Shown piece by piece: positions 26,263 to 42,161 of a stretch of 58,916 nucleotides of DNA. Under the pieces are notes generated by a model, which was not told where the DNA came from, ran no database searches, and was given only the letters and a program-made list of their open reading frames with translations. Origin of the DNA: a virus. Made by a program: the position numbers and the translations under genes. Numbering within the stretch: position 1 is the stretch's first letter; every line of letters starts with the position of its first letter. The DNA lies in IMG/VR virus record IMGVR_UViG_3300009285_006111, positions 1 through 58,916 of that record; one strand, 5' to 3'.

Positions 26263-26574
26263 ATGACACTCGTATCCGAAGAAGATGCCTTAAATGAAAT
26301 ACTAAAAGGCATTGAACTTGCACAAGAAAGAATCGCCGCAGGCACATTAGGCTGCTTTCATTGCATGAAAAACAAGGCAACCAACGTAATACTCCTAGTC
26401 ACAGACAAAATAGAAAATGGAGCAAAAATCGACAATATCCGAGTAATTCACGCCGGCATTTGTTCCATGTGCGAAATGCTTGCATCTGAAGCAGATAAAC
26501 AAGCAGCCGCAGATAAACTATTTAAAGAACAACCACAGACCAGAAGCCAAACGGGCGCGGCAGGCGGCTTATAA
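26263..26574 (+). CDS. Zinc-binding-like protein whose 3' end overlaps a tRNA
   Basis: 103 residues with CFHCMKNK and later GICSMCEM, a possible split zinc site. The last 12 codons and the stop lie inside tRNA-Ile at 26537-26609, so the C-terminal SQTGAAGGL tail is probably a by-product of tRNA insertion. Confidence 0.58.
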   Translation: MTLVSEEDALNEILKGIELAQERIAAGTLGCFHCMKNKATNVILLVTDKIENGAKIDNIRVIHAGICSMCEMLASEADKQAAADKLFKEQPQTRSQTGAAGGL

Positions 26575-26609
26575 CCGTCTTACAGATGGTTCAATTCCAT
26601 CCTGGTCTA
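26537..26609 (+). tRNA. tRNA-Ile(UAU), isolated inside the AT-rich island
   Basis: Complete cloverleaf: acceptor AGACCAG/CTGGTCT, D-stem GCC/GGC, anticodon stem GGCGG/CCGTC with loop CTTATAA, T-stem GATGG/CCATC with loop TTCAATT, A73, then CCT (no CCA). Reads AUA, an Ile codon used heavily by the surrounding genes. Confidence 0.88.
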
Positions 26610-26655
26610 CCTAAAAAACATAAAAAGACACCTAAAATAACCAAAAAAGAAAAAA

Positions 26656-26871
26656 ATGCCTAATTGGACAATCTCTCTAGGTAAAGAAGGTCCTACAGAT
26701 TCTACATTAATATTAACACATCCAGAAGGTCATAATAGAGAAGCATTTATAGAATCTGAAGCATGGTTTTGTTTAAGTGCAATTGCTGGAATGGAATATC
26801 CCTATAAAATCCCTACAAATAGATTTGACTCACATATTTGTAATTTAATATGGGCTCATGCAAATTTTTAA
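26656..26871 (+). CDS. Uncharacterised AT-rich 71-aa protein
   Basis: Free-standing between tRNA-Ile and the next gene, with coding-like composition (NWTISLGKEGPTDSTLILTH). No domain recognised. Confidence 0.55.
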   Translation: MPNWTISLGKEGPTDSTLILTHPEGHNREAFIESEAWFCLSAIAGMEYPYKIPTNRFDSHICNLIWAHANF

Positions 26872-26905
26872 CTAACAAAAAAACAAAACCACTTCCCTTT
26901 CTAAA

Positions 26906-27178
26906 ATGAACTTTATAGAAACTCGTCGCAACAATAAAAAAATAATGCAATTATTTGGATTCGAATACAATCTAGACGATAATGACGTACTCTATGAATG
27001 TGATACACCAAACAACAATAACCGACTAAAAGCCATAATAGAAGACATAGCCAAACTAGACGACTGCGAACATGGTATACCCCTCGATCTATGCACAATT
27101 TGCCCTAATGAACTAACACACCCAAATTGCCCACATGGCCTCCCAATACTCATCTGCATGAAATGCACCCATGGCTAA
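26906..27178 (+). CDS. Protein with duplicated Cys-His-Gly zinc motif
   Basis: 90 residues. The C-terminal part has two similar units, CEHGIPLDLCTIC and CPHGLPILICMKC, each a likely zinc site, as found in small phage or actinobacterial proteins of unknown role. It overlaps the amidoligase start by eight bases. Confidence 0.62.
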   Translation: MNFIETRRNNKKIMQLFGFEYNLDDNDVLYECDTPNNNNRLKAIIEDIAKLDDCEHGIPLDLCTICPNELTHPNCPHGLPILICMKCTHG

Positions 27179-28334
27179 ACAAATAATCGATAGCGTCGGC
27201 ATTGAAATGGAATTCATGAACATAAACAGAACCGATCCTAGATTCATATCTAGAATACGAACTAACCTAAGAAATTATAAACTAGGACATGACGCTTCAT
27301 GTGAAACACCAATCTTCGCAATAGGAAACCATGAAATAACACTAGATACCAAAAAAGCAAGACAACTACTTGAAAACTTAACAAATAAAATAGTCATTGG
27401 TGGAGAACTAGCTTCTCCAATCATAGATACAATTTCACCAGATTGGATTCTTGAAATTCACAAACTATGCTCCATACTTAAAGAATATGGAGAAATAGAA
27501 GACACACCTAGAGCAAGCTTCCACGTTCATATAAATCTATCTCGAGAAGCCCCACTATATGTAATCTTAAACCTCCTAAAACTAACACTAGAATATGAAG
27601 CAATTCTATTCAGATTAGGTGGGATGGGCAGACGCCAACGCGGCGAGCAAAATCAATATGCCTACTGCAGACCATATCTAGGAAATGGTCCTCCAGTAAT
27701 AAATATACGAACCATAAATTACCCAATTCTAAATCCAAAAGACCTACTTGAATCAACCTCAATACAGCAATTCTTTACAAGATACGGAAATGCCTATCAC
27801 TTAGCAGAAAACGGAGCCAAATACATTACACCCAGATACATGAGTGTAAATTTTTATCCAATCTTAACTCAAGGCTCCTTAGAATTCAGAACTGCCAACA
27901 AAACACTAAACCCCAGATATATCATAGCTTGGACAAACTTCTGTAAAGCAATAGTAAAAAGAGCCTTTAGCACATCAGACATCCAACTTATTGATCCATT
28001 ACCATTAGCCGACAACAAAACAATATCAACAAGAGAATTCATATATCGAATAGAAACACTAAACCTAGACGAAGCAACTCTAAATACACTGATAGAAATA
28101 TGGGAAACATCTCCAACACCCATTTTTGACAACAAATGGATGTATTCCCATTTAGAAGAACCAACTAGACTTGACCCAGAAATATATGCACCAACTCCAC
28201 TACCAAAGAAAACAAAAATTGTAGAACCAAAAATAATTGATGTAAGAAATGCAGAAAGAAACAACGACCCAGATCATGAAAATGACGTAGAAAAATTTCT
28301 AAACGAAAATCCAGACATAGACGACGAACAATAA
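27171..28334 (+). CDS. Amidoligase (glutamine-synthetase-like COOH-NH2 ligase)
   Basis: 387 residues. Family marks: GIEMEF (10-15) for the first metal/ATP acidic residues, SFHVHINLS near 118-126 and GSLEFRTAN near 239. These are the conserved Glu, His and Arg positions of the putative amidoligase family (glutamine-synthetase fold). Such enzymes couple ATP hydrolysis to amide or peptide bond formation. It starts a block with class II amidotransferase, ATP-grasp ligase, a second amidoligase and class I amidotransferase. No Shine-Dalgarno site is visible; translation is probably coupled. Confidence 0.85.
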   Translation: MAKQIIDSVGIEMEFMNINRTDPRFISRIRTNLRNYKLGHDASCETPIFAIGNHEITLDTKKARQLLENLTNKIVIGGELASPIIDTISPDWILEIHKLCSILKEYGEIEDTPRASFHVHINLSREAPLYVILNLLKLTLEYEAILFRLGGMGRRQRGEQNQYAYCRPYLGNGPPVINIRTINYPILNPKDLLESTSIQQFFTRYGNAYHLAENGAKYITPRYMSVNFYPILTQGSLEFRTANKTLNPRYIIAWTNFCKAIVKRAFSTSDIQLIDPLPLADNKTISTREFIYRIETLNLDEATLNTLIEIWETSPTPIFDNKWMYSHLEEPTRLDPEIYAPTPLPKKTKIVEPKIIDVRNAERNNDPDHENDVEKFLNENPDIDDEQ

Positions 28335-29503
28335 TGTGCCAACTAACTCTCATTGAATTCAAAGATCAACGCCTGGCTAAACTGATAATCAGGCCATTAA
28401 CTGAAATCAACACAGTTGGAATATCCACCTTCGCCAACAACGATGGTTTTGGATATGTCTGCTTCTCTAATTTAGATAACATTATTAAAACAAAAGAAAG
28501 TGCACAAAACTGGTGGACAGATAATAAAACACAACTCCTAAAACCCAACAAAAACATAAACGGATTATATCATGTAAGAGCCTGTAGCCCAGGACAGCCC
28601 AAAAACGATCCTATACATTCTCATCCAGTAATCAATGGAAACTTAATCCAGATACATAATGGAACACTAGAAATCAATAAATTCGATAAAGAAAATAAAG
28701 AACTACAACACCTAATAAATGTAAACAACACAGATAGCAGAAACTTCTTAAATACACTAGAACATTTCGTTGAACAAAACCCGCCACTAACCAAAGAACA
28801 CATACTTAAAACCTTAGATCATTGGTATGGAACTTATGCTCTAATGCTAATAGATAAACGAGTAAAAAATCAAGTATTCATAGTAAAAGATGACAAGAAA
28901 ACTCTAAATAGCTGCACCTTCTATCATCAAAAAGAACCTATAGGAATCATTATAAACACTGGTGAATTCGAACTAAACTATATCGCACGCATCATCGAAA
29001 GCTTCTTAGACCTAGCAGATGAAACCAAAATCACATATGAAATAGAAAAAATCCCAGATTTAAAAATATTAAACTACAAAATAGGATCATACGCATACCC
29101 AGAAATCATTGAAGAAATCCCCACAAAGAAAGCAGAAAACAAACAAACCGCAGTAACCATATTCCACCGACAACAACCAACTTATTATTACCAAAAAGAC
29201 AATAAACCAATAATCTCTTTGCTAGCCAAACTTAACATCTCATATACCGAACTACAAGTAATCTCAGAAGTTTGCCTCGGCAAAAACATTTTCATACTAG
29301 ATGAAACAGAAATCCATCAACTTCAACAATTCCTAGAATATCTAGACAAACAATACTACAATAAAAACAAAACTGAAACTTGGATTGCTCTAACCAAAAA
29401 AACAGACAAAAGAAAACTCTACCAAGCAAAAAACATAGAGTTCCCTTACACTCTAAATAGCAACAACACATTAAAGAAACTACAAAAATCATACCCACTA
29501 TAA
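28334..29503 (+). CDS. Class II (Ntn) glutamine amidotransferase-like protein
   Basis: 389 residues beginning Met-Cys, so removal of Met exposes the nucleophilic Cys. Supporting motifs are YHVRACSPG near 78-86 and IQIHNGTL near 105-112, equivalent to the HxRxAT and NG motifs of the GlnB/YafJ/GlmS class. The first 230 residues form this domain; the rest (to 389) is unassigned and AT-rich. It would release ammonia from glutamine for amide synthesis by the adjacent ligases. The start overlaps the preceding TAA. Confidence 0.82.
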   Translation: MCQLTLIEFKDQRLAKLIIRPLTEINTVGISTFANNDGFGYVCFSNLDNIIKTKESAQNWWTDNKTQLLKPNKNINGLYHVRACSPGQPKNDPIHSHPVINGNLIQIHNGTLEINKFDKENKELQHLINVNNTDSRNFLNTLEHFVEQNPPLTKEHILKTLDHWYGTYALMLIDKRVKNQVFIVKDDKKTLNSCTFYHQKEPIGIIINTGEFELNYIARIIESFLDLADETKITYEIEKIPDLKILNYKIGSYAYPEIIEEIPTKKAENKQTAVTIFHRQQPTYYYQKDNKPIISLLAKLNISYTELQVISEVCLGKNIFILDETEIHQLQQFLEYLDKQYYNKNKTETWIALTKKTDKRKLYQAKNIEFPYTLNSNNTLKKLQKSYPL

Positions 29504-29504
29504 A

Positions 29505-30275
29505 ATGAATAACTACAAAGGGCTATTGGTCTTCAACGAACAATCATTCATTTCAGCAAAAGCCCTAGCCAAGCATTTAAACCTAAGACCAATAAAGAAC
29601 GACATAACAATTGCGAGATTATCAAAAAGATTACCAATCAAAATAAGATACGGAAACTCCCATGTACCACACAAACAAGATACAAACTTCAACTCCACCT
29701 CCGTAATACAACTTTGCTCAAACAGCTTGGCGTTTTCAAATTTTTGCCAAAACAACAATATACTTAGTCCTATATACAACGACATCAATATAGAACATAA
29801 TCTAACTTATCCTAAGGACTATCCAGTACTACTAAGAAATAAATATCACAGAGCAGGAAACGACATACTAATTGCCTACAATCCAGACTACTTATACGAT
29901 AACGAATTCAATCACGAATACTGGACAGAATTCTTTCCAACTGAATATGAAATTAGAATACATTATATAAATAAAAATATAATTAGAATATTCCTAAAGC
30001 AACACCCACAAAATGAAAAACCAGAAATACCCATAAGAACAGCCAGACTTGGCTGGCACTACAGCATCAAACCAGAAAATGACGAAGAAAGATTCAAACA
30101 AGCAAAAACACTAGTACATGACATAGCAGAACAAATAAATCTAGGATTCGGCGCATTCGATATGGCATGGTCAAACGAACACAAAAAATACATCATCTGG
30201 GAAATCAACACAGCACCAGGCCTTAACGCAAATACTCTAGAACTATACGCTCAACACTTAAATCAGGTAATATAA
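29505..30275 (+). CDS. ATP-grasp ligase
   Basis: 256 residues. YPVLLRNKYHRAGNDI (about 104-119) carries the nucleotide-binding Lys and the Gly-rich loop. Near the end, FGAFDMAW and WEINTAPGLNANTLELY give the metal-binding Asp, Glu and Asn of the ATP-grasp core. These enzymes make an acyl phosphate and join it to an amine or thiol. In this cassette it is a candidate peptide or amino-acid ligase. Confidence 0.85.
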   Translation: MNNYKGLLVFNEQSFISAKALAKHLNLRPIKNDITIARLSKRLPIKIRYGNSHVPHKQDTNFNSTSVIQLCSNSLAFSNFCQNNNILSPIYNDINIEHNLTYPKDYPVLLRNKYHRAGNDILIAYNPDYLYDNEFNHEYWTEFFPTEYEIRIHYINKNIIRIFLKQHPQNEKPEIPIRTARLGWHYSIKPENDEERFKQAKTLVHDIAEQINLGFGAFDMAWSNEHKKYIIWEINTAPGLNANTLELYAQHLNQVI

Positions 30276-30276
30276 A

Positions 30277-31464
30277 ATGCAACCTACCATATCCCTACAA
30301 ACATTAGTAAATCCGCCAGAAAATGAATTCAATGGCGTAATCCATTCATTAGAAAAATGGGGCGATTGTAAAATCGACTCAACTCATAGCCTAGAATATC
30401 CCATAGCAAGTTCATTCGACAAAAACGAAATTGTGATCCAATCAAAAATTCCACTAAGCAAATTAGAACTAAACAAAATCAAAGACTTCACAATAAGAAA
30501 CATAGCAACAATGGAGAAAATACTTTTCAATACCTCCATAGAACCAATAGCATACAAAATAAAAAATGGCTTCAACTCAAAATGGATGGCTACTTCAACA
30601 CTAACTGACAGCCTGAAACCACTTACATTAGCTACATTAACACAAGCCATAACAAAACAATCTGATCACAGGGGATTTCTAATCACTATCGGAAATGAAC
30701 TTATACAAATCTACAAACCCTATTTAACTCCCGCTACAATCCTGTTAATACTAGACAAATATGCAGACAAAGATATCCCAGTAACCCAAACCAAAACTCA
30801 TGAAGAAATAACCATAAACGGTCTAGTACTAATGATGAACATTCTGGAAAGCAACTTAAATATTAATCTATCTATAATTTCAAATGTCGAATATATGTAC
30901 AAATCACTAAAAGACAAAAACCTACTACTACATGTACCCACAACCTTTAATGAAAAATACATAAAAGACATCTCTACCAAGAAACTAATAAAATTATTTG
31001 CAGCAGTTAACTCCAATCCCACCATACCCCAAAAAGAAACTACAACAACACCAGACAAGACACTAACCATACACAAAACTATCTCAACAGACAAATTCGC
31101 TCATCTAACAACATACATAAAGCCATTATCAAAACTACTAAGCAAGGACTTATCCGCAGATGAATCAATAGAAGCATTAGTAGCTACAGAACTAGTAGTA
31201 CCCGATTGTGAAATAACATTAAAAATGAAAGACAATATCATCAACCTAACACCAAAAGATTTCAAGTACGCCTACATAGATGAAGAAGAACTATGGTTAG
31301 TACTAGAAGATGATGTAACATTAAGCACCAATGAAAAAAATATAGTCTCCGAATTTCTAGAAGAAGAACAACCAACATTTGAAAAAGTCAATCTATGCTA
31401 TGACTACGAACAAAAATTGTCTGATAAAATCAAAGGACAAGTCCTTCTTCTTGAAGGAGCATAA
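30277..31464 (+). CDS. Uncharacterised 395-aa protein of the amidoligase cassette
   Basis: Lys/Thr/Ile-rich, no catalytic motif recognised. The order is a mixed alpha/beta N-terminal half, a Thr-rich linker near 250-265 (KETTTTPDKTL) and an acidic C-terminal domain (EEELWLVLEDDV). It lies between the ATP-grasp gene and the second amidoligase, so it may be substrate, scaffold or partner. Confidence 0.68.
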   Translation: MQPTISLQTLVNPPENEFNGVIHSLEKWGDCKIDSTHSLEYPIASSFDKNEIVIQSKIPLSKLELNKIKDFTIRNIATMEKILFNTSIEPIAYKIKNGFNSKWMATSTLTDSLKPLTLATLTQAITKQSDHRGFLITIGNELIQIYKPYLTPATILLILDKYADKDIPVTQTKTHEEITINGLVLMMNILESNLNINLSIISNVEYMYKSLKDKNLLLHVPTTFNEKYIKDISTKKLIKLFAAVNSNPTIPQKETTTTPDKTLTIHKTISTDKFAHLTTYIKPLSKLLSKDLSADESIEALVATELVVPDCEITLKMKDNIINLTPKDFKYAYIDEEELWLVLEDDVTLSTNEKNIVSEFLEEEQPTFEKVNLCYDYEQKLSDKIKGQVLLLEGA

Positions 31465-31467
31465 ATA

Positions 31468-31884
31468 ATGATAAACTTAATCTGCGATAAATGTCACCAC
31501 ACACTATCCATAAAAATCAATCTTAAAAATCTAAACTCACAAGTAAGACTTATACTATCTGAAAATAACCCCGCCGAACTAAAACTACAAGCCTATGGAA
31601 CAACAGCCATAAATCCACTTATAGAAATTATAAGTTATAGATGTGATTCATGCAGAAAAGTAAAATCAATAGACGAAATATACATCTGGTCAAATACAAA
31701 TGACAAAGTAATAAAGGCATCTGACGCCGAAATATTCCTATTTCCTGATCGACCTTGGAATAATCTCGTACAAGAAAAATCTAACACAACTCCAGATGAC
31801 ATAAAGAAAAAACACAAAATGAAAGAAGAAACAGTAATCGTAAAAGTAACTTTAAACGATCTAAACTGGAAACGAAGTGAATAA
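31468..31884 (+). CDS. Zinc-ribbon protein, 138 aa
   Basis: CDKCHHT at the N-terminus and YRCDSCRKV near residue 58 form a four-Cys site. It overlaps the next start by eight bases. Confidence 0.65.
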   Translation: MINLICDKCHHTLSIKINLKNLNSQVRLILSENNPAELKLQAYGTTAINPLIEIISYRCDSCRKVKSIDEIYIWSNTNDKVIKASDAEIFLFPDRPWNNLVQEKSNTTPDDIKKKHKMKEETVIVKVTLNDLNWKRSE

Positions 31885-32848
31885 CCTAAACCATATCTTT
31901 GGAACAGACCCAGAAGCATTCATCTTCGACAAATTCATAAAAGATGAAAAACTAGGATTAATTCCAAACATAATTCCTCCAATCGCACTAGTACATGACT
32001 TCGGAGCAACCTACGAAACCATAAAAGGTAAAAATGTACTAATCAAAACAGAAGAATTTCAATGGTCAGAAGATGGTGCAGCAATAGAACTTCAAATGAA
32101 TCCAACAAACGATTCAGCAACATTCTTATCAAGAATTGCTCTTGCAAAAATTGAACTCAATAGTTTCCTTTCACAATTCAATTTAGAAGCAACCACAGCT
32201 TTTCCAGTAGGCTTTTTCAACCTAAACAAATACTGGAAGAAAAGAAATGAAGACTTTCGAAGTTGCGTAATCTTCGGTTGCGATCCCGATGAATTTCCTT
32301 ATAAATACATAGAACTAGGTCTAGATGATCCAGAAAATAAACACACATTAAACGTAGAAACACATAAATATCGTTATGGTGGCGGCCATATCCACATCCA
32401 AGCACCAACAAAAAATCCCGAAATCTATCTAGATAACTGGGCTAAAGCATCTATAGTATTTGACTTCCTAGCTGGATTAGGAAACGTATCATTCGCCAAA
32501 CCTACCCAAACTAGAAAGCTAGAAAAGTTCAGACTAAACTACTATGGAAAACCAGGTAGAATAAGATTGCAATTCTACAAAGAAAAACCAAAAACATATG
32601 GAATAGAATACAGAGCACTTTCCAATTCTTGGACAAATTATCCAAACATGACAAACAATCTTCTTCATTTACTAGACATTGCAGCTACAGTAATTGAAAA
32701 AGACATGGGAGATAAATTCATCACCCACTTTGAAAAAGATATACCATTAATGCACAAAACAATCCGAACACTAAATAAAACTATAGCAACAACTCTACTA
32801 CAAAGGTGTCTAACATGGACAAAAAAGAATATAAAAAGCAACTCCTAA
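31877..32848 (+). CDS. phiEco32-like type 2 amidoligase (COOH-NH2 ligase)
   Basis: 323 residues from a GTG. Ordered motifs: FGTDPEAF (8-15), DGAAIELQMNP, FGCDPDEFPYK, YGGGHIHI, YYGKPGRIR and GIEYRALSNSW. This set is characteristic of the phage amidoligase type 2 family named after phage phiEco32, another glutamine-synthetase-fold ligase lineage. Having both types in one operon implies two successive amide-forming steps. Confidence 0.88.
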   Translation: MNNLNHIFGTDPEAFIFDKFIKDEKLGLIPNIIPPIALVHDFGATYETIKGKNVLIKTEEFQWSEDGAAIELQMNPTNDSATFLSRIALAKIELNSFLSQFNLEATTAFPVGFFNLNKYWKKRNEDFRSCVIFGCDPDEFPYKYIELGLDDPENKHTLNVETHKYRYGGGHIHIQAPTKNPEIYLDNWAKASIVFDFLAGLGNVSFAKPTQTRKLEKFRLNYYGKPGRIRLQFYKEKPKTYGIEYRALSNSWTNYPNMTNNLLHLLDIAATVIEKDMGDKFITHFEKDIPLMHKTIRTLNKTIATTLLQRCLTWTKKNIKSNS

Positions 32849-33534
32849 ATAATACACATCTAAAAGAAATGATTGAAGTGGACAAATATCGAATATCTTA
32901 TTCTGTAATTTACGGCCACTCAATAGACACATTAGGTCAACTCGCATGTTTTGCGGGACTCAAAAGTGTATTGCAAGACAAGCATAACATGGTATACCTA
33001 TTAAAGAAAATTGCAAAAACAAAAATAGCATACTTTACAACCCTAAAAAGCCTACAAAAAATATTCAAAAACACATTCACAATTAACTACACAAATCTAA
33101 ATTCAGACTACATCCTTGTAGAAATCCATTCAATAAACGAAGATATAGACAAAAACTTAGAAGAAATAGGATTCATCATAATCGGAGTATTACTAAGAAG
33201 TATAGATTTTGAATACATACGTAAACTAGAAAAATTACCTACCACTAGTAAACGAACAAATATAGTCACAATCGTAAAAGATTTATACACCTTTAATAAA
33301 GAAGGTTGGAGTTCTCACGCCATCTATAGTGGATTAAGCAGACACCCAGAAGTCACCGATGAATATTTCAAAAACATCATCTCAATCTTTGGTAAACCTA
33401 ACAAGAAATTAAACAAAAAGACAACAATAAACGCAATGCAACACTATAGAAAAAATCACCAAATAAGAGAATCAATAGGATACGACTACGCCTACAAAGC
33501 AATACTAAACATACTTTACCCAGGAGTATATTAA
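32815..33534 (+). CDS. Uncharacterised 239-aa protein of the amidoligase cassette
   Basis: A GTG three codons upstream (32806) is an equally possible start. Helical, Lys/Ile-rich; SHAIYSGLSRHPEVTDEYF is its most distinctive part. It overlaps the second amidoligase by 34 bases. No recognised domain. Confidence 0.65.
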   Translation: MDKKEYKKQLLNNTHLKEMIEVDKYRISYSVIYGHSIDTLGQLACFAGLKSVLQDKHNMVYLLKKIAKTKIAYFTTLKSLQKIFKNTFTINYTNLNSDYILVEIHSINEDIDKNLEEIGFIIIGVLLRSIDFEYIRKLEKLPTTSKRTNIVTIVKDLYTFNKEGWSSHAIYSGLSRHPEVTDEYFKNIISIFGKPNKKLNKKTTINAMQHYRKNHQIRESIGYDYAYKAILNILYPGVY

Positions 33535-34185
33535 ATGTTAATAGGAATAACCGATACAGGAATGATACCCCGAACCCGATGGCAAAAATTACTCAAACCA
33601 TTCATTAATGATCTACAAATAACCAGAATCTCACATCACAGCAAAATCAATAGAAACATAGACCTCATCATATTCGATGGCGGCGCAGACGTAACTCCAT
33701 ACCTATACGGAGAACGTCCAGAATGGTATACTCACTACAATCTCCAAAGAGACCTCATAGAAAGAACCATAGCACTACAATACATGAGAAATGAAAGAAC
33801 CAAATATGTGGGAATATGTCGCGGCCATCAATTCCTCAATACAATCTTCAATGGAACTCTTCATCAAGACCTAAACGCAATCAAAAAAGGACACGAAATA
33901 AGACATGATGTCACCCCATTCCCAAACTCAGAAATCACCAAATATATAAAAGAACTCAGATTCGAAGTCAATAGTTATCATCACCAAGCCATCCGAGAAA
34001 TAGGAACTGAATTAAAAGCAACTCTATTTGATCCACTTACCGAAGTAATAGAAGGAATAGAATCAGATACAAAAATAGACTATCTACAAGACAAAGTAAG
34101 AGCTGTACAATGTCATCCTGAAGACATACGTGAATTTGCAGAAGCTCCCAACCTAATCAAATATCTATTCAGGTTGCCAATATGA
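33535..34185 (+). CDS. Class I glutamine amidotransferase / gamma-glutamyl hydrolase-like (peptidase C26)
   Basis: 216 residues. FDGGADVTP sets the oxyanion loop region, GICRGHQFLN holds the nucleophile Cys (about residue 99), and YHHQA plus QCHPED supply the catalytic His-Glu pair. These are the marks of PuuD/peptidase C26-type proteins, which cleave gamma-glutamyl bonds or release ammonia. In this operon it may trim or undo what the ligases make, or supply ammonia. Confidence 0.87.
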   Translation: MLIGITDTGMIPRTRWQKLLKPFINDLQITRISHHSKINRNIDLIIFDGGADVTPYLYGERPEWYTHYNLQRDLIERTIALQYMRNERTKYVGICRGHQFLNTIFNGTLHQDLNAIKKGHEIRHDVTPFPNSEITKYIKELRFEVNSYHHQAIREIGTELKATLFDPLTEVIEGIESDTKIDYLQDKVRAVQCHPEDIREFAEAPNLIKYLFRLPI

Positions 34186-34262
34186 GCACAGACCAAGAAA
34201 CAATAGAAATACTAATTGAAGACATGAAAAACGGCGTAGGCGGGGGTATTAAATGTCATTAA
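34182..34262 (+). CDS. 26-residue peptide gene with Gly-rich C-terminus
   Basis: Begins as ATGA with the class I amidotransferase stop and ends overlapping the next gene. The peptide is acidic, then ends GVGGGIKCH. Its exact coupling argues that it is translated. A short Gly-tailed peptide beside amide ligases could be a ligation substrate, but that is speculation. Confidence 0.45.
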   Translation: MSTDQETIEILIEDMKNGVGGGIKCH

Positions 34263-34654
34263 CAGATCAACAAATTTTAGCTATAAAAAATAAATTAAAC
34301 CTAAAAAACACAACTATTCAATCATATAGAAATAAATACACCATTTTCAAAAATCAACAAAAAATTTTCCAAATAATGCTCCAAAGTTTTCCTAATACTT
34401 GTGGCACATTCATTGCATCTGAACTATATTTTTTTGCCAGTACAGAAAAAGATAAAGAACTGGCCTTCAAAATAATATATGAAATAACCAAAATAAAAAG
34501 AAAATCAGCTATAATCTATTTAGCTGCACAATGGCAAACAAACATTAAAGATAGTTTAATAAAACAAAAATGGCAAAAACTAACTGGCTCTTTCATAAAC
34601 CACAATTCTCACAATAAAAACATACTTTACATAAAACATGTATACAAATCATGA
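34253..34654 (+). CDS. Uncharacterised AT-rich 133-aa basic protein
   Basis: Lys/Asn/Gln-rich and helical. Overlaps both neighbours by four to ten bases. No domain recognised. Confidence 0.6.
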   Translation: MSLTDQQILAIKNKLNLKNTTIQSYRNKYTIFKNQQKIFQIMLQSFPNTCGTFIASELYFFASTEKDKELAFKIIYEITKIKRKSAIIYLAAQWQTNIKDSLIKQKWQKLTGSFINHNSHNKNILYIKHVYKS

Positions 34655-35034
34655 CCAAAACAACCCCTAGCCATATACACCACAATAGAATGAGAGAATT
34701 TCCCCGACGAGAACTCCTACAACTAACAGTAGCAGCATTTCAAGCAGGCCTTAAAGATATCCAAAGAGAATGGCCAGCCGAAGGATTATGGGATGAAATA
34801 GCAAATCGCTGGCATTGGTTCGATCTAGCCGGCCAACATAATGACAATCTAATCCTATTCGATTTCGAACCAGGATACTGGGACAGCCGCCCAACTAAAC
34901 CAGAACTAGAAAGAACACAACAAAAAAAAGCTTGGGCGGAGCTTAATAAAATACCACTAATGATCGTAAAACATGGATATACAACCCTAGAACTTACAAT
35001 CCTAATCCGCAAATTTCTAATGGAAAACCAATGA
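34651..35034 (+). CDS. Uncharacterised 127-aa protein, possibly nuclease-like
   Basis: Contains LILFDFEPGYWDSRP followed by helix and ELNKIPLMIVKHGYTTLEL, an arrangement loosely like restriction-endonuclease folds (acidic residue, then Ile-Val-Lys strand). The family is not certain. ATGA overlap with the previous gene. Confidence 0.6.
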   Translation: MTKTTPSHIHHNRMREFPRRELLQLTVAAFQAGLKDIQREWPAEGLWDEIANRWHWFDLAGQHNDNLILFDFEPGYWDSRPTKPELERTQQKKAWAELNKIPLMIVKHGYTTLELTILIRKFLMENQ

Positions 35035-35171
35035 AAAACCTAATCTGCTTAATAGTAGGACACGACTGGTGGCTATTTAAAACCGCCCAATTTAGTACAA
35101 AATCAGGAAAAATCCTCTATAGACCCGAACATTATCGCTGTTTAAGATGTAATGAAAAAAGAATAATCTAA
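35031..35171 (+). CDS. Small DUF1660-like zinc protein, 46 aa
   Basis: Starts KNLICLIVGHDWWL and ends YRCLRCNEKR, the C-x-GHxW and CxxC layout of the small phage DUF1660-like family. It closes the AT-rich island and overlaps the previous stop by four bases. Confidence 0.65.
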   Translation: MKNLICLIVGHDWWLFKTAQFSTKSGKILYRPEHYRCLRCNEKRII

Positions 35172-35283
35172 ACACTACAACCTATTTAAATCTTTTACCT
35201 AAGAAAACCCAACAGAATAGTTATCATCAATATCTGAAACTTATATGCGCGCGGCCACCACTCACCAGTAATATATATGTGAC

Positions 35284-35357
35284 TTGACACGACCCAAGGC
35301 TTAAAATACGAGCGCCGCAAGGCAGGGGATGCACGTGCGGCGACTCAAAGGAGAGAG
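35284..35357 (+). promoter_or_regulatory. Structured leader with TTGACA box between island and next gene
   Basis: TTGACA at 35284-35289 has only a weak -10 (TACGAG, spacing 17). Downstream, CGCCGC (35313-35318) pairs with GCGGCG (35337-35342), followed by AAAGGAG and a nine-codon ORF. Confidence 0.35.
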
Positions 35358-39017: not shown

Positions 39018-39090
39018 ACTCGGCTAACTCAATTGGCAGAGTACCAAGCTGTTAACTTGGGAGTTCGTGGTTCGAATCCACGGCTGAGTG
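39018..39090 (+). tRNA. tRNA-Asn(GUU)
   Basis: Acceptor ACTCGGC/GCTGAGT, D-stem ACTC/GAGT, anticodon stem CCAAG/CTTGG with loop CTGTTAA, T-arm CGTGG-TTCGAAT-CCACG, G73, CCT. Confidence 0.92.
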
Positions 39091-39095
39091 CCTAA

Positions 39096-39177
39096 CCACC
39101 CAATCTTGTTGCGATTCATTGTGGGTGGCTAATCGCAAGTCCCCCCCGTGTTAGACACCGGAATGACACGGTGGGGC
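39096..39177 (+). ncRNA. Inter-tRNA pseudoknot RNA, copy 1
   Basis: CCACCCA (39096-39102) pairs with TGGGTGG (39122-39128). The loop sequence TTGCGAT (39109-39115) pairs with downstream ATCGCAA (39132-39138), a perfect 7+7-bp H-type pseudoknot. A third stem follows (CCGTGT/ACACGG, extended by CCCC/GGGG). Copy 2 at 40897-40963 has the same layout with compensatory changes. Confidence 0.75.
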
Positions 39178-39181
39178 AAAT

Positions 39182-39255
39182 GGGCCTGTAGCTCCAATTG
39201 GGAGAGCGCCCCGCTTGCACCGGGGAGGTTGCGAGTCCGAATCTCGCGAGGTCCA
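39182..39255 (+). tRNA. tRNA-Ala(UGC)
   Basis: Acceptor GGGCCTG/GAGGTCC with a 7-66 mismatch, D-stem GCTC/GAGC, anticodon stem CCCCG/CGGGG with loop CTTGCAC, T-arm GCGAG-TCCGAAT-CTCGC, A73, CCT. Confidence 0.9.
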
Positions 39256-39257
39256 CC

Positions 39258-39330
39258 TGCGGATTGAGGCGCGCATCGAGTACCCTAACGGGGAAAGGAA
39301 AGTCCTCCGCCCGGGCCACGTTACGGCCCC
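39258..39330 (+). ncRNA. Inter-tRNA structured RNA
   Basis: GCGG/CCGC and GAGG/CCTC bracket a CCC-TAAC-GGG hairpin, and GGGCC/GGCCC (loop ACGTTAC) lies at the 3' side. It follows the CCT of tRNA-Ala. Fold is tentative. Confidence 0.4.
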
Positions 39331-39333
39331 AAT

Positions 39334-39410
39334 GTGCTCGTAGTCCAAACGGATACGACGCCGCGCTTCGAACGCGGAAATTGTCAGATCATACCTGACC
39401 GAGCACTCCA
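39334..39410 (+). tRNA. tRNA-Arg(UCG), A54/U58 T-loop
   Basis: Acceptor GTGCTCG/CGAGCAC, anticodon stem CCGCG/CGCGG with loop CTTCGAA, T-stem GTCAG/CTGAC with loop ATCATAC, T73 and encoded CCA. One base separates it from the next tRNA. Confidence 0.9.
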
Positions 39411-39411
39411 T

Positions 39412-39483
39412 CTTGCCGTAGTCGAGTAGACAAGACCCCGCCCTGCGAAGGCGGTAGCGGTGGTGCAAATCCACCCGGTAAGA
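39412..39483 (+). tRNA. tRNA-Arg(GCG)
   Basis: Acceptor CTTGCCG/CGGTAAG, anticodon stem CCGCC/GGCGG with loop CTGCGAA, T-stem GGTGG/CCACC with loop TGCAAAT (G55), A73, CCT. Confidence 0.88.
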
Positions 39484-39489
39484 CCTGAT

Positions 39490-39565
39490 GCCACCGGACC
39501 ACGTTAGGACGTGGACCATCCTTGTAAGATGGAATAAGCTGGTTCGAATCCAGTCGGCGGCTCCA
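39490..39565 (+). tRNA. tRNA-Thr(UGU)
   Basis: Acceptor GCCACCG/CGGCGGC with one A-C mismatch, D-stem CCAC/GTGG, anticodon stem CCATC/GATGG with loop CTTGTAA, T-loop TTCGAAT, T73, CCA; next tRNA one base on. Confidence 0.9.
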
Positions 39566-39566
39566 T

Positions 39567-39642
39567 GCTTTGGTAGCTCAGTTGGCAGAGCACCGCTTTC
39601 GTAAAGCGGGGGCCGCGGGATCGTAGCCCGCCCGAAGCTCCA
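39567..39642 (+). tRNA. tRNA-Thr(CGU), A54/U58 T-loop
   Basis: Acceptor GCTTTGG/CCGAAGC, D-stem GCTC/GAGC, anticodon stem CCGCT/AGCGG with loop TTCGTAA, T-stem GCGGG/CCCGC with loop ATCGTAG, T73, CCA; next tRNA one base on. Confidence 0.92.
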
Positions 39643-39643
39643 T

Positions 39644-39718
39644 GCCGGTGAAGTGTAGGCGGCGACACGCGAACTTGGTAAGTTCGAAAGTTGGGATCGT
39701 GCCCCAACACTGGCTCCA
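39644..39718 (+). tRNA. tRNA-Thr(GGU), A54/U58 T-loop
   Basis: Acceptor GCCGGTG/CACTGGC, D-stem GTGT/ACAC, anticodon stem CGAAC/GTTCG with loop TTGGTAA, T-stem TTGGG/CCCAA with loop ATCGTGC, T73, CCA; next tRNA one base on. Confidence 0.92.
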
Positions 39719-39719
39719 T

Positions 39720-39791
39720 GCGGGGGTAATTCAGTGGTAGAATGTCTCGTTGCCAACGAGAATGTCGCGGGTCCGAATCCCGCTCTCCGCT
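39720..39791 (+). tRNA. tRNA-Gly(GCC)
   Basis: Acceptor GCGGGGG/TCTCCGC (wobble pairs), D-stem ATTC/GAAT, anticodon stem TCTCG/CGAGA with loop TTGCCAA, T-arm GCGGG-TCCGAAT-CCCGC, T73, CCT. Confidence 0.92.
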
Positions 39792-39816
39792 CCTGTCTAT
39801 TATAAAGGAGTTACAA

Positions 39817-40017
39817 ATGAATATAGTGATACGTGTCGCTACTGATCCATTACTAACCGGCATCCTTACTACGGAAGCCAATGATCCGGGGGCAGATCAT
39901 GTAACCTACAACTTCTCAGATGAGGAGTTAAAAGCCATGCAATCAGAATATGCTCCCCCAGGATTTGCCAAAGCTATGCATGAATATCTAATTAGACATA
40001 GTTCTTATCTGAAATAG
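39817..40017 (+). CDS. Small protein inside the tRNA array, 66 aa
   Basis: AAAGGAG precedes the chosen ATG; upstream in-frame codons lie within tRNA-Gly. Sequence MNIVIRVATDPLL then a helical C-terminus. No domain recognised. Confidence 0.65.
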   Translation: MNIVIRVATDPLLTGILTTEANDPGADHVTYNFSDEELKAMQSEYAPPGFAKAMHEYLIRHSSYLK

Positions 40018-40023
40018 AAACGT

Positions 40024-40095
40024 GCTGGTGTAGTTCAGTGGTAGAACGTCAGTTTTCCAAACTGAATGTCGGGAGTTCGAATCTCCCCACCCGCT
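40024..40095 (+). tRNA. tRNA-Gly(UCC)
   Basis: Acceptor GCTGGTG/CACCCGC with one mismatch, D-stem GTTC/GAAC, anticodon stem TCAGT/ACTGA with loop TTTCCAA, T-arm GGGAG-TTCGAAT-CTCCC, T73, CCT. Confidence 0.9.
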
Positions 40096-40110
40096 CCTAG
40101 AAACTGGTAC

Positions 40111-40138
40111 TTGACAAGACCGAAAGATGTGGTAATAT
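40111..40138 (+). promoter_or_regulatory. Internal promoter of the tRNA array
   Basis: Perfect TTGACA (40111-40116), 16-bp spacer and TAATAT (40133-40138). It would start transcription just before the structured RNA at about 40154. Confidence 0.7.
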
Positions 40139-40153
40139 AAAGATAGTAGTAAA

Positions 40154-40242
40154 GCAACCCGGCGGAACTGAGAAGGATGCTCGTCAGCCAGCAAGCCAGT
40201 ATCGAGACCCGTAATTGCTGATAAGCGGGACGCCGGGCTGCA
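40154..40242 (+). ncRNA. Structured RNA with its own promoter
   Basis: Outer stem GCAACCCGGCG with CGCCGGGCTGC (11 positions, one mismatch). Inside, TCAGC/GCTGA and CCCG/CGGG interleave, giving an H-type pseudoknot. No ORF with a ribosome site. It sits between the internal promoter and tRNA-Gln(UUG). Confidence 0.55.
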
Positions 40243-40245
40243 CAT

Positions 40246-40320
40246 TCAATCGTAGGCTAATTGGCAGGCCACCGGGCTTTGAACCCGAGGATGTTGGTCC
40301 GAATCCAGCCGATTGAACCA
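40246..40320 (+). tRNA. tRNA-Gln(UUG)
   Basis: Acceptor TCAATCG/CGATTGA, D-stem GGCT/GGCC, anticodon loop CTTTGAA, T-arm GTTGG-TCCGAAT-CCAGC, A73, CCA; next tRNA one base on. Confidence 0.9.
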
Positions 40321-40321
40321 T

Positions 40322-40401
40322 GGGTCTTACGGCGGTGGACGCTACGCTGTCTGTAAAACAGTTGCCTTCGGGCGAGGGTAGTTCGACTCTACCAGGACCC
40401 A
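40322..40401 (+). tRNA. tRNA-Tyr(GUA)
   Basis: Acceptor GGGTCTT/AGGACCC, anticodon loop CTGTAAA, long variable arm with GCC-TTC-GGGC, T-arm GGTAG-TTCGACT-CTACC, A73, CCT. Confidence 0.9.
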
Positions 40402-40403
40402 CC

Positions 40404-40457
40404 TAGCGCGCCCACTCTAAACCAGGGTACCAAAGTGTGAGATTACCCGGCGCGCTT
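40404..40457 (+). ncRNA. Inter-tRNA structured RNA
   Basis: AGCGCGC at the 5' end pairs with GCGCGCT at the 3' end (7 bp). Inside, GGGTA/TACCC forms a stem whose loop carries AGTG, able to pair with upstream CACT. It follows the CCT of tRNA-Tyr. Confidence 0.5.
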
Positions 40458-40476
40458 TCATCGTCTGCTTTTTCAG

Positions 40477-40519
40477 CCTAATCTACTGGCCCATTGCTGC
40501 GAAAAGGGCCGAGCAGGCT
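40477..40519 (+). ncRNA. Small structured element before tRNA-Gln(CUG)
   Basis: AGCCT/AGGCT enclosing GGCCC/GGGCC; a short two-step hairpin. Confidence 0.35.
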
Positions 40520-40522
40520 CAT

Positions 40523-40594
40523 ACAGGACTAGGCGAACGGTAAGCCGCCGCTCTCTGAAAGCGTAGATTCCTCGTTCGAATCGGGGGTCCTGTA
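40523..40594 (+). tRNA. tRNA-Gln(CUG)
   Basis: Acceptor ACAGGAC/GTCCTGT, D-stem GGC/GCC, anticodon loop CTCTGAA, T-arm CCTCG-TTCGAAT-CGGGG, A73, CCT. Confidence 0.9.
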
Positions 40595-40596
40595 CC

Positions 40597-40690
40597 TGAC
40601 TGAGCATATGACAGGGAAAACCATAAGCCAGAGGGTAGTAGCGGAGACGGTTGCTACTATGTCGGAGTGACCTCTCTCCATGCTCAGTTA
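40597..40690 (+). ncRNA. Inter-tRNA structured RNA
   Basis: ACTGAGCA at the 5' side pairs with TGCTCAGT at the 3' side. Nested inside are AGAGG/CCTCT and TAGTAGC/GCTACTA. It follows the CCT of tRNA-Gln(CUG). Confidence 0.5.
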
Positions 40691-40695
40691 ACCAT

Positions 40696-40769
40696 GCTCT
40701 CGTAGCAAAAATGGATACCGCGCCGAGCTTCTAACTCGGAGACTGTAGGATCATACCCTACCGAGAGTA
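40696..40769 (+). tRNA. tRNA-Arg(UCU), A54/U58 T-loop
   Basis: Acceptor GCTCTCG/CGAGAGT (G-U first pair), weak D-stem, anticodon stem CCGAG/CTCGG with loop CTTCTAA, T-stem GTAGG/CCTAC with loop ATCATAC, A73, CCT. Reads AGA, a main Arg codon of the AT-rich island. Confidence 0.88.
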
Positions 40770-40772
40770 CCT

Positions 40773-40812
40773 AGTGGCCTCAACCTGTGTCACCACTTTA
40801 AAAACGGCACAG
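40773..40812 (+). ncRNA. Inter-tRNA pseudoknot (5+5 bp)
   Basis: AGTGG (40773-40777) pairs with CCACT (40793-40797). The loop CTGTG (40785-40789) pairs with downstream CACAG (40808-40812). It follows the CCT of tRNA-Arg(UCU). Confidence 0.5.
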
Positions 40813-40819
40813 CAATTAT

Positions 40820-40891
40820 CGGGGATAGGTGTAACGGTTGCATGCGCCCCTTGGAAGGGTGTGGTAGCAGGTTCGATCCCTGCATTCCCGA
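40820..40891 (+). tRNA. tRNA-Pro(UGG)
   Basis: Acceptor CGGGGAT/ATTCCCG, anticodon stem CGCCC/GGGTG with loop CTTGGAA, T-arm GCAGG-TTCGATC-CCTGC, A73, CCT. Confidence 0.9.
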
Positions 40892-40896
40892 CCTGA

Positions 40897-40963
40897 CCGC
40901 CCATTTTGTTGCTATCATCTTGGGCGGCTTATAGCAAGGCTCCGCCAACCTATAGGACGGCGG
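40897..40963 (+). ncRNA. Inter-tRNA pseudoknot RNA, copy 2
   Basis: CCGCCCA (40897-40903) pairs with TGGGCGG (40921-40927). The loop TTGCTAT (40909-40915) pairs with ATAGCAA (40931-40937). A third stem CTCCGCC/GGCGGGG follows. Layout matches copy 1 (39096-39177), and base changes in both helices are compensatory. Confidence 0.75.
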
Positions 40964-40970
40964 GGTACTC

Positions 40971-41057
40971 GGAGAGTCTAACATCGGCGTGTGTAGCACT
41001 CTTGAAAAGTGTAGTACGGTGAAACCCGTATTGAGAGTTCGACTCCCTCACTCTCCG
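40971..41057 (+). tRNA. tRNA-Ser(UGA)
   Basis: Acceptor GGAGAGT/ACTCTCC, anticodon loop CTTGAAA, long variable arm with TACGG/CCGTA, T-loop TTCGACT (one stem mismatch), G73, CCT. Confidence 0.88.
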
Positions 41058-41065
41058 CCTGACTC

Positions 41066-41210
41066 AAGATAGGTACCGCCCGCCCGAGGATTATAGATCG
41101 TATAGAAGGCAGGGGTTGTGTGCAAAGCCTATCAACGGGTCCCAAAATGGGTGAGCGACACTCTGGCCCATCGGGTCATCGTCTAAATGCAGGACGTGGG
41201 ACTTGTACAT
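41066..41210 (+). ncRNA. Inter-tRNA structured region
   Basis: GATAGG near 41069 pairs with CCTATC near 41127, and ATGGG pairs with CCCAT further on. No ribosome-binding site or convincing ORF; fold tentative. Confidence 0.35.
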
Positions 41211-41286
41211 GTTGCCAGTAGCCGAGTGGCTCAGGCGTCTGGCTGTGAACCAGATTACGGGAGTTCGATTCTCCTCTGGCACCCCA
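41211..41286 (+). tRNA. tRNA-His(GUG)
   Basis: An extra G at -1 opposite C73, acceptor TTGCCAG/CTGGCAC, anticodon stem TCTGG/CCAGA with loop CTGTGAA, T-arm GGGAG-TTCGATT-CTCCT, CCA; next tRNA one base on. G-1 with C73 is the His signature. Confidence 0.92.
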
Positions 41287-41287
41287 T

Positions 41288-41360
41288 GCAGCTCTAGCTC
41301 AAATGGTAGAGCATCCGCTTGAAGCGCGGAGTGTACCCGGATCGTTACCGGGGGGCTGCA
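41288..41360 (+). tRNA. tRNA-Phe(GAA), A54/U58 T-loop
   Basis: Acceptor GCAGCTC/GGGCTGC, D-stem GCTC/GAGC, anticodon stem TCCGC/GCGGA with loop TTGAAGC, T-stem CCCGG/CCGGG with loop ATCGTTA, A73, CCT. Confidence 0.92.
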
Positions 41361-41366
41361 CCTGAT

Positions 41367-41440
41367 GATCGCTTGGCCGAGTGGCTAGGCGGCAGTCTGC
41401 AAAACTGCATACGAGAGTTCAATTCTCTCAGCGATCTCCA
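41367..41440 (+). tRNA. tRNA-Cys(GCA)
   Basis: Acceptor GATCGCT/AGCGATC, anticodon stem GCAGT/ACTGC with loop CTGCAAA, T-arm GAGAG-TTCAATT-CTCTC, T73, CCA; next tRNA one base on. Confidence 0.92.
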
Positions 41441-41441
41441 T

Positions 41442-41514
41442 ACCTCCGAAGCTCATGTGGATGAGCACGCCGCTCTTAACGGTGAGGTAGCAGGTTCGAA
41501 CCCTGTCGGTGGTA
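41442..41514 (+). tRNA. tRNA-Lys(CUU)
   Basis: Acceptor ACCTCCG/CGGTGGT with one mismatch, D-stem GCTC/GAGC, anticodon stem CGCCG/CGGTG with loop CTCTTAA, T-loop TTCGAAC, A73, CCT. Confidence 0.9.
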
Positions 41515-41529
41515 CCTGAAGGAGAAACA

Positions 41530-41613
41530 ATGTCAAGAGAAGAAAAAGGCACAAAAATAGCTTTAGCAATATTTGTAATAGGTCTTATAGTATTAGCAAT
41601 CATTACTGGCTAA
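41530..41613 (+). CDS. 27-residue membrane peptide inside the tRNA array
   Basis: GAAGGAG precedes the ATG. Charged start (MSREEKGTK) then one helix (IALAIFVIGLIVLAIIT). AT-rich compared with the flanking tRNAs. Confidence 0.6.
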   Translation: MSREEKGTKIALAIFVIGLIVLAIITG

Positions 41614-41620
41614 ATATTAT

Positions 41621-41704
41621 CTCATAGTGGCGGAATGGCAGACGCGCGGGCCTCAAACTCCCGTGTCGCAAGGCGTGAAGGTTCAAGTCCTTCCTGTGAG
41701 ACCA
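41621..41704 (+). tRNA. tRNA-Leu(CAA)
   Basis: Acceptor CTCATAG/CTGTGAG, anticodon loop CTCAAAC (31-39 mismatch), variable arm with CGC/GCG, T-arm GAAGG-TTCAAGT-CCTTC, A73, CCA; next tRNA one base on. Confidence 0.88.
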
Positions 41705-41705
41705 T

Positions 41706-41779
41706 GCTCCTCTATCCCAATCGGCAGAGGAGTCCGGCTTAAACCCGGACCAGTCTGAGTTCGAATCTCAGGGGGAGCA
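41706..41779 (+). tRNA. tRNA with anticodon UAA but short variable loop (nominal Leu)
   Basis: Acceptor GCTCCTC/GGGGAGC, D-stem TCC/GGA, anticodon stem TCCGG/CCGGA with loop CTTAAAC, five-base variable loop CCAGT, T-arm CTGAG-TTCGAAT-CTCAG, A73, CCT. Bacterial Leu tRNAs carry a long variable arm; this one does not, so its amino-acid identity is uncertain. Confidence 0.85.
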
Positions 41780-41781
41780 CC

Positions 41782-41847
41782 TAGTTGGGACGGTTTAATC
41801 ACTTTAGGCCAATGTGCGGGACTAGTGCCCCGCACTTCCAACTACAT
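41782..41847 (+). ncRNA. Inter-tRNA structured RNA
   Basis: TAGTTGG pairs with CCAACTA across the segment (7 bp), enclosing a GTGCGGG/CCCGCAC hairpin. The hairpin loop contains AGTG, which could pair with upstream CACT. Confidence 0.5.
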
Positions 41848-41931
41848 GCAATCGTGGCGGAACTGGCATACGTAGCTGCCTTAGAAGCAGCCGCCCTTAC
41901 GGGATTGGGGGTTCGACTCCCTCCGATTGCA
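41848..41931 (+). tRNA. tRNA-Leu(UAG)
   Basis: Acceptor GCAATCG/CGATTGC, anticodon stem GCTGC/GCAGC with loop CTTAGAA, variable arm CCC-TTAC-GGG, T-loop TTCGACT, A73, CCT. Reads CUA, common in the AT-rich island. Confidence 0.93.
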
Positions 41932-41934
41932 CCT

Positions 41935-42102
41935 ATGTTAAAAATGATTAATCCATGGGACACTCTAAAAGATATTGCAGATAAAGCTAAGGCTTTTCTA
42001 CCAAAAGGACCTCGCCAATTAGAAATTGATAAAGCTATCAAAGAATGGAAAGAAAAGGGTTATGACAAGAAACACGATATTAATGCCCCCGTAGCTCAAT
42101 AG
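41935..42102 (+). CDS. Small helical protein ending inside tRNA-Lys(UUU)
   Basis: 55 residues, amphipathic and charged (TLKDIADKAKAFLPKG, AIKEWKEKGYDKK). No ribosome-binding site. The stop codon lies in the D-loop of the next tRNA, as in the 26263-26574 gene. Confidence 0.45.
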   Translation: MLKMINPWDTLKDIADKAKAFLPKGPRQLEIDKAIKEWKEKGYDKKHDINAPVAQ

Positions 42103-42160: not shown

Positions 42161-42161
42161 T

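Follow-up and report, generated by a model that had tools for sequence, protein, structure and literature searches.

The window, a 58,916-nt virus record from IMG/VR (IMGVR_UViG_3300009285_006111), raises the question of what a phage makes with a dense run of ligases and amidotransferases, and on what target they act. The first-pass annotation had placed an amide-bond chemistry cassette at 27171-34262. The start of that span holds, but the cassette proper stops at 34185. It is a single tight operon of eight genes and ~7 kb on the plus strand (27171-34185), in the order Amidoligase_2, class II glutamine amidotransferase (GATase II), ATP-grasp ligase, D, E, COOH.NH2 ligase, G, and class I glutamine amidotransferase (GATase I). 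The spacing between adjacent genes ranges from a 3-nt gap to a 43-nt overlap. All eight frames are open, and alignments show that the catalytic motifs are intact. Promoter and terminator scans gave signals at chance level.

The five enzymes named by the first-pass annotation were each recovered at this place through Pfam, PHROG, or profile matches and through their active-site residues. The Amidoligase_2 protein (27171-28334, 387 aa), a carboxylate-amine ligase with a GS fold, matched PF12224 (E 1.8e-11; 44.8 bits, cut-off 22) and phrog_7469/2443. Its residues E12, E14, H118, H120, E143, E238, and R240 are invariant among seven aligned lineage members. The second GS-fold enzyme, a COOH.NH2 ligase type 2 (31877-32848, 323 aa), matched phrog_3815 (E 1.9e-23) and fell below the cut-off for PF14395. 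D11, E13, E71, H171, H173, R230, E244, and R246 are invariant in this protein across two alignments, and tblastn found matches to it in 209 phage records. The ATP-grasp ligase (29505-30275, 256 aa) is of the RimK/Ddl type. It matched phrog_2599, ribosomal protein S6 glutaminyl transferase (E 1.6e-13), has D219, E233, and N235 invariant in the alignment, and gave weak profile matches to structures of Ddl, RimK, and other ATP-grasp ligases.

The class II (Ntn) amidotransferase-type protein (28334-29503, 389 aa) is very diverged, and its match to GATase_7 reached only E 0.014. The lineage profile matched the structures of PurF and GlmS (E 4e-7 to 8e-6) and, weakly, EgtC. C2, R82, N109, G110, and D134 are invariant and correspond to Cys1, Arg73, Asn98, Gly99, and Asp123 of GlmS; the N-terminal cysteine nucleophile and the GlmS-type Arg, Asn, Gly, and Asp that mark class II membership are present. 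The C-terminal half of the protein has no family assignment. The class I enzyme (33535-34185, 216 aa), which resembles C26 gamma-glutamyl hydrolases, matched PF07722 at E 2.8e-28 and contains the Cys-His-Glu triad (C95, H194, and E196). Its profile matched the structures of Lin1909 and PuuD. EgtC and PuuD are gamma-glutamyl hydrolases, and these profile matches leave the substrate specificity of the window enzymes unfixed.

This five-enzyme set is the published "peptidoglycan modification cassette" of LUZ24-, phiEco32-, and RIO-1-like phages (PMC5498523, PMC11945000, PMC3890496), and the earlier tie to known phage amidoligase/ATP-grasp/amidotransferase clusters was right. The novelty implied for having the two amidoligase types together with the two amidotransferase classes was not supported by comparison, because that combination is the published norm and all five enzymes occur in 70 further contig stretches. 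We also saw the set in LUZ24-like, Zobellviridae, and Vibrio phages. The known cassette (PSA-HP1/RIO-1, LUZ24, PaP3, tf, and phiEco32) shares with the window the five enzyme families and a site near early/replication genes. The window enzymes differ from it in sequence (mostly ~16-28% identity; 28-36% for the class I enzyme), the gene order is rearranged, and the window has its own partners, D, E, and G. Zobellviridae phage T5S1-k141_444551 (PQ867842) and Pseudomonas phage vB_PaP_DMTU_1 (PV659690) carry the five enzymes in a single run, as the window does, but their order is different (hyp-GATase I-GATase II-COOH.NH2-hyp-amidoligase-ATP-grasp, with linked MazG). Neither cassette yielded a homologue of D, E, or G, nor of the AAA+ protein described below. 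Gamma-glutamyl cyclotransferase is an accessory gene of many members; it is present in 40 other loci, was found neither in the window nor in the loci of its clade, and is also missing from the T5S1 and DMTU_1 annotations. Its absence is non-defining for membership. The feature that marks membership, a cluster of Amidoligase_2, COOH.NH2 ligase type 2, ATP-grasp, and glutamine amidotransferases, is found in the window. Judged from its sequence, the window cassette is a highly diverged member of the described peptidoglycan modification cassette.

A nucleotide search of known phages found nothing, and single-protein scans of viral contigs returned zero relatives. Relatives in viral contigs were recovered with alignment queries. 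In a four-protein tree, the window groups with RuvB-bearing cassettes from 11 IMG/VR contigs in a clade of its own (bootstrap 94-98; 94-100 at the nodes that hold the window). The clade order is amidoligase, GATase II, ATP-grasp, RuvB-like AAA+ ATPase, D, E, COOH.NH2 ligase, G, and GATase I. All 11 relatives have the RuvB-like gene, an addition relative to the known cassette. It directly follows ATP-grasp in 10 of them and lies ~240 nt later in L008. It is conserved as strongly as the ligases, matches all ten other loci, and belongs to the clade core. Its product has a winged helix and is ~29 residues shorter than RuvB between Walker A and sensor 1. In a literature search, amidoligase and RuvB were both named in one jumbo-phage review, as single mentions.

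The window is nested inside this RuvB-bearing clade despite lacking the gene. Comparison with the 11 lineage loci places the empty site at 30276, between ATP-grasp and D, and a six-frame search of the entire record gave no match. The gene may sit beyond the ends of the contig, since this linear record is perhaps incomplete. Two relatives, L087 (3300037722_000240) and L088 (3300005821_000002), keep the operon order of the window, and D and E occupy the corresponding positions. Of the five enzymes, four are 35-50% identical to their counterparts there, and the class II amidotransferase is 29-31% identical; for single proteins, we measured 47-51% for Amidoligase_2 and 40-41% for ATP-grasp. Unlike the window, both have the RuvB-like gene, a duplicated G, and a long C-terminal extension of the amidoligase. 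What sets the locus apart is its separate clade, the clade's partners that resemble RuvB (AAA+) and a Zn ribbon, and the lack of the AAA+ gene in the window. The comparison reveals a second cassette lineage, whose AAA+ partner was not expected, and it separates lineage-specific parts from a core made up of the three ligases, the class II enzyme, and, in most members, the class I enzyme.

The cassette sits in an AT-rich island (26500-35300). GC in the island is 0.29-0.38, against 0.46 across the whole window; cassette genes have a GC3 of 0.25-0.34, whereas replication and structural genes have about 0.45-0.55. The window DNA polymerase is 28-31% identical to those of L087 and L088, whereas the cassette ligases reach 40-50%. 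The TerL of the window phage has no match. Given the GC island and a cassette closer to its relatives than the DNA polymerase is, the cassette looks horizontally acquired as a unit. Scans of bacterial genomes found no Amidoligase_2 relative and one partial relative of the COOH.NH2 ligase, in an Omnitrophota bin; the short contig that carries it holds no other cassette gene.

The unassigned partners pointed out by the first-pass annotation proved to be real: independent contigs hold a homologue of each or a protein at the matching position. Protein D (30277-31464, 395 aa) matched the protein in the same slot of L087 by BLASTP (25% over 146 aa, E 7e-7). The D-slot proteins of L087 and L088 match each other at E 8e-14, and an independent weak profile match was found in L183 (E 9e-4). 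The AlphaFold model of D is poor (pLDDT 41). Protein E (31468-31884, 138 aa) has two CxxC motifs (C6/C9 and C59/C62), of which C9, C59, and C62 are common to seven lineage members; it is probably a Zn ribbon. Independent profile matches to E were found in L183, L178, and L180 (E 5e-17 to 6e-14), and it precedes the COOH.NH2 ligase in the window and in nearly all clade members. Protein G (32806-33534, 242 aa) matched the same slot of L088 by BLASTP (E 5e-11), where the gene is duplicated. Because its GTG start gives a 43-nt overlap with the preceding gene, the true start may be downstream. The AlphaFold model of G is weak (pLDDT 54) and confident only locally. The best match of its core, a ribosomal protein S6 permutant, has a middling Z of 5.0, which we took as a common arrangement and not as a fold assignment. 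Equating D or G with hyp1/hyp2 of the LUZ24/Zobellviridae cassettes was unsupported (BLASTP E >0.1).

What might these proteins do together? We give an even chance to a horizontally acquired operon for ribosome-independent amide/peptide-bond synthesis, a divergent amidoligase cassette that probably alters the host envelope. The five families with their active-site motifs, the recurrence of the set in other phages and contigs, the published proposal, the PuuD/EgtC profile matches, the GC island, and the identity contrast between the cassette ligases and the DNA polymerase argue for this reading. In it, the three ligases, two of the GS fold and one ATP-grasp, would use ATP to activate carboxylates for coupling to amines or amino acids, and the outcome would be a short peptide, probably with a gamma linkage, or an aminoacyl addition. 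The class II enzyme would either provide ammonia from glutamine or cleave a gamma-glutamyl amide; the class I (C26) enzyme would strip gamma-glutamyl groups in the manner of PuuA/PuuD or EgtA/EgtC. D, E, and G may be accessory or targeting factors. The product would most likely change the host envelope during infection. For the known cassette, the published idea is that peptidoglycan stem peptides are altered, which would block superinfection or ease lysis. We infer the order of reactions, the gamma linkage, and the benefit, and take the cell-wall target from the published inference. Phage annotations have listed the cassette for a long time with no product proven, and in the literature on it we found no experiment that demonstrates a product or target. 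Two features of the clade argue against a cell-wall role: it lacks the gamma-glutamyl cyclotransferase that the other lineage carries, and a RuvB-like ATPase is not obviously needed in a wall pathway.

PuuA/PuuD and EgtA/EgtC are ligase and hydrolase sets that make and unmake soluble gamma-glutamyl metabolites. The cassette could likewise make a soluble small peptide or gamma-glutamyl metabolite (a signal, an osmolyte, or a nucleotide-salvage or defence-blocking compound) and leave the wall unmodified. The profile matches to PuuD and EgtC fit this idea, as does an operon in which no transport or wall-anchoring gene was recognised. The benefit to the phage is not evident, however, and published authors prefer the envelope; we regard such a metabolite as unlikely. 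Modification of a protein, in which, for example, a subunit of the ribosome or of RNA polymerase gains amino acids in RimK style, strikes us as decidedly unlikely. The closest PHROG of the ATP-grasp enzyme and its weak RimK match point that way, and the Zn-ribbon-like E could serve as an adaptor, but the RimK match spans just part of the protein, and three ligases with two amidohydrolases exceed what protein tailing requires.

The RuvB-like partner suggests two further models. The clade may be a distinct system in which the shortened RuvB-family AAA+ protein is an integral motor or loader for amide ligases on DNA, RNA, or nucleoprotein, with the window phage using a substitute or no motor; we hold this to be quite unlikely. 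That the clade cassette modifies nucleic acid or nucleoprotein, with the RuvB-like motor or a substitute bringing the enzymes to DNA, we consider quite improbable. A winged-helix AAA+ protein in the clade core agrees with it, and for CmoY, amide ligation by a phage enzyme onto DNA bases has been proven (PMC12783734). Both CmoX/CmoY hypermodification and the window involve phage-encoded, ATP-dependent amide ligation, but CmoY is an asparagine-synthetase homologue (PMC12783734) and the window ligases are GS-fold and ATP-grasp enzymes. Family scans of the window proteins scanned recognised no CmoA, CmoX, or asparagine-synthetase-type ligase, and no DNA carboxymethyltransferase or other base-handle enzyme. 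The RuvB-like gene is also absent from the window, and the AAA+ protein may act in remodelling, as a chaperone, and have no role at DNA.

Loss of this core gene, missing where relatives have one, could mean that the cassette is decaying or non-functional in the window phage, which is very improbable given eight open frames, intact motifs, tight coupling, and a possibly incomplete record that may have left the gene off the contig. The window offers a compact natural set of eight genes in 7 kb, free of both the AAA+ gene and the cyclotransferase, in which the minimal chemistry is testable.

The window carries a real, intact and well-bounded cassette of eight genes at 27171-34185 (+). The first-pass annotation had proposed an amide-bond cassette of two amidoligases, an ATP-grasp enzyme and both classes of amidotransferase, and its gene calls are borne out by the family assignments along this order: an amidoligase (Amidoligase_2, PF12224), a class II amidotransferase-type protein, an ATP-grasp protein, protein D, the two-CxxC protein E, a COOH.NH2 ligase type 2, protein G and a class I amidotransferase/C26. 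The spacing is tight, from 3 nt apart to a 43 nt overlap, so the genes very probably form one transcription unit. Two of the enzymes have diverged too far for Pfam alone to identify them: GATase_7 matches the class II protein at E 0.014, and for the COOH.NH2 ligase PF14395 stays below cut-off (E 0.042). A PHROGs match (E 1.9e-23) secured the ligase, a profile search against solved structures matched the class II protein to PurF (E 4e-7) and GlmS (E 2e-6), and invariant catalytic residues back both identities.

The active sites of these enzymes are preserved. The class II protein retains Cys2, Arg82, Asn109, Gly110 and Asp134, invariant in our alignment, which we take to correspond to GlmS Cys1, Arg73, Asn98, Gly99 and Asp123. 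Cys95, His194 and Glu196 are retained in the class I enzyme, with His-Pro immediately before Glu196; the ATP-grasp protein keeps Asp219, Glu233 and Asn235, and in both GS-fold ligases the acidic and His positions are conserved. Judged by sequence, the cassette enzymes show no sign of decay.

The combination of five enzymes, which had prompted the first-pass annotation, is not new. All five occur in a single run in Pseudomonas phage vB_PaP_DMTU_1 and in Zobellviridae phage T5S1-k141_444551, and the full set is present in 70 further fetched contig stretches, some of which overlap on the same contig. Such loci have been named peptidoglycan modification cassettes, and it has been proposed that they change the wall, either to guard against superinfection or to assist lysis (PMC5498523, PMC11945000, PMC10580990). 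Our literature search for the cassette product found no experimental demonstration. The window cassette stands out not for its enzyme mix but because its clade has an AAA+ partner of its own, which is missing here.

Alignment-based scans of contigs recovered closer relatives, led by L087 (IMG/VR 3300037722_000240) and L088 (3300005821_000002). Their identity to the window is 47-51% for the amidoligase, 44-48% for the COOH.NH2 ligase, 40-41% for the ATP-grasp protein, 36-40% for the class I enzyme and 29-31% for the class II enzyme. Further relatives are L007, L008, L011, L089, L173, L178, L180, L183 and L185. In a four-protein tree, the window joins L087 and L088, then L173 (support 100), within a 12-member clade (support 94-98) that is separate from LUZ24/Zobellviridae-type cassettes. 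Gamma-glutamyl cyclotransferase, found in 40 other cassette loci, is present in none of this clade. In the L185 cassette (3622-12725), class I amidotransferase and ATP-grasp genes each occur twice, which suggests duplication within the pathway.

The typical gene order of the clade is amidoligase, class II, ATP-grasp, RuvB-like AAA+, D, E, COOH.NH2 ligase, G and class I. The RuvB-family protein (250-275 aa) follows ATP-grasp in all 11 relatives and comprises RuvB_N, lid and RuvB_C winged-helix domains, with an invariant Walker A lysine and a conserved Walker B (DE[IV]H) and arginine finger. Three of these contigs were recruited through this gene. The other eight (L007, L008, L011, L087, L088, L089, L173 and the L171/L178 contig) were found via other genes, and all eight carry it. 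Each of five proteins (amidoligase, class II, ATP-grasp, RuvB-like and COOH.NH2) finds a match in all ten other loci at E 1e-5, against only 32 of 151 flanking ORFs with a match in any; by this sequence comparison the AAA+ gene is a core part of the clade's cassette. It was found in none of the cassette loci outside the clade. L182 encodes a cassette-family RuvB-like protein (8995-9768) with no other cassette gene within the fetched 9 kb on either side.

In bacterial RuvB, the stretch from Walker A to sensor 1 includes the RuvA-contacting hairpin. The best RuvB structure has ~29 extra residues there (query 47-95 versus chain 73-150), and because this stretch is so shortened, the phage protein is probably not a RuvA partner. 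A search of all frames of the window found no RuvB-like sequence. Since the window nests within a RuvB-bearing clade, the simplest reading is that the gene was lost or relocated in this phage, whose linear record may be incomplete. Its absence suggests that the partner would not be required for catalysis.

Enzymes of the GS-fold and ATP-grasp families make acyl phosphates and couple these to amines, class II proteins can supply ammonia or cleave gamma-glutamyl amides (GlmS, EgtC), and C26 enzymes cleave gamma-glutamyl bonds (PuuD). By analogy, the best-supported reading is a pathway that ligates gamma-glutamyl groups or peptides and in which the attached group can be taken off again: the ligases and ATP-grasp protein would activate carboxylates as acyl phosphates for coupling to amines, the class II protein would provide ammonia or cut gamma-glutamyl amides, and the class I enzyme would cut gamma-glutamyl bonds. 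We tentatively favor the wall as target, as published. A metabolite, protein or nucleic acid may be modified instead, and the RuvB-like partner slightly raises the case for nucleic acid in this clade.

The partner proteins are conserved to different degrees. E belongs to a family of small cysteine-pair proteins present in nearly every clade member; its gene takes the slot preceding that of the COOH.NH2 ligase, with L008 as the exception. D is homologous between the window and L087 (E 7e-7) and between L087 and L088 (E 8e-14); wider homology is positional and rated weak, because the search profile included these sequences. The window G is homologous to that of L088 (E 5e-11), a locus that carries the gene in duplicate. 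Structure models of D and G were poor, and none of the partner proteins could be given a function. L089 has three tandem paralogues (~300-340 aa; 10137-13063) after the COOH.NH2 ligase, and in several other clade members a G-like gene stands in two such copies side by side.

The cassette lies in a 26.5-35.3 kb island with 29-38% GC, versus 46% for the whole record, and depressed third-position GC. The window DNA polymerase is 28-31% identical to those of L087 and L088, no closer than to other contigs (26-34%), and a TerL search of the relatives' contigs, run without a positive control, gave no match. The best fit is that the cassette moved in as a unit from a phage lineage that is AT-rich. The backbone of this phage is also poorly known, since among 50,697 phage records the large terminase (12297-13949, -) has a single relative, a weak one (a Christensenellales phage, 21%, E 7e-6). 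The late module includes a NeuB-family sialic-acid-synthase-like gene (PF03102, E 8e-60) with relatives in few phage records, lying next to a weak MptE-like gene and two Methyltransf_24 genes (14923-15948 and 16009-17854, both -). A 264 aa ORF at 43781-44575 is a solitary N-terminal half of an SNF2-type helicase, apparently without the C-terminal lobe. A lone tRNA-Ile (26537-26611) overlaps the end of ORF 26263-26574, and a 32-gene tRNA array at 39018-43533 (+) covers most amino acids.
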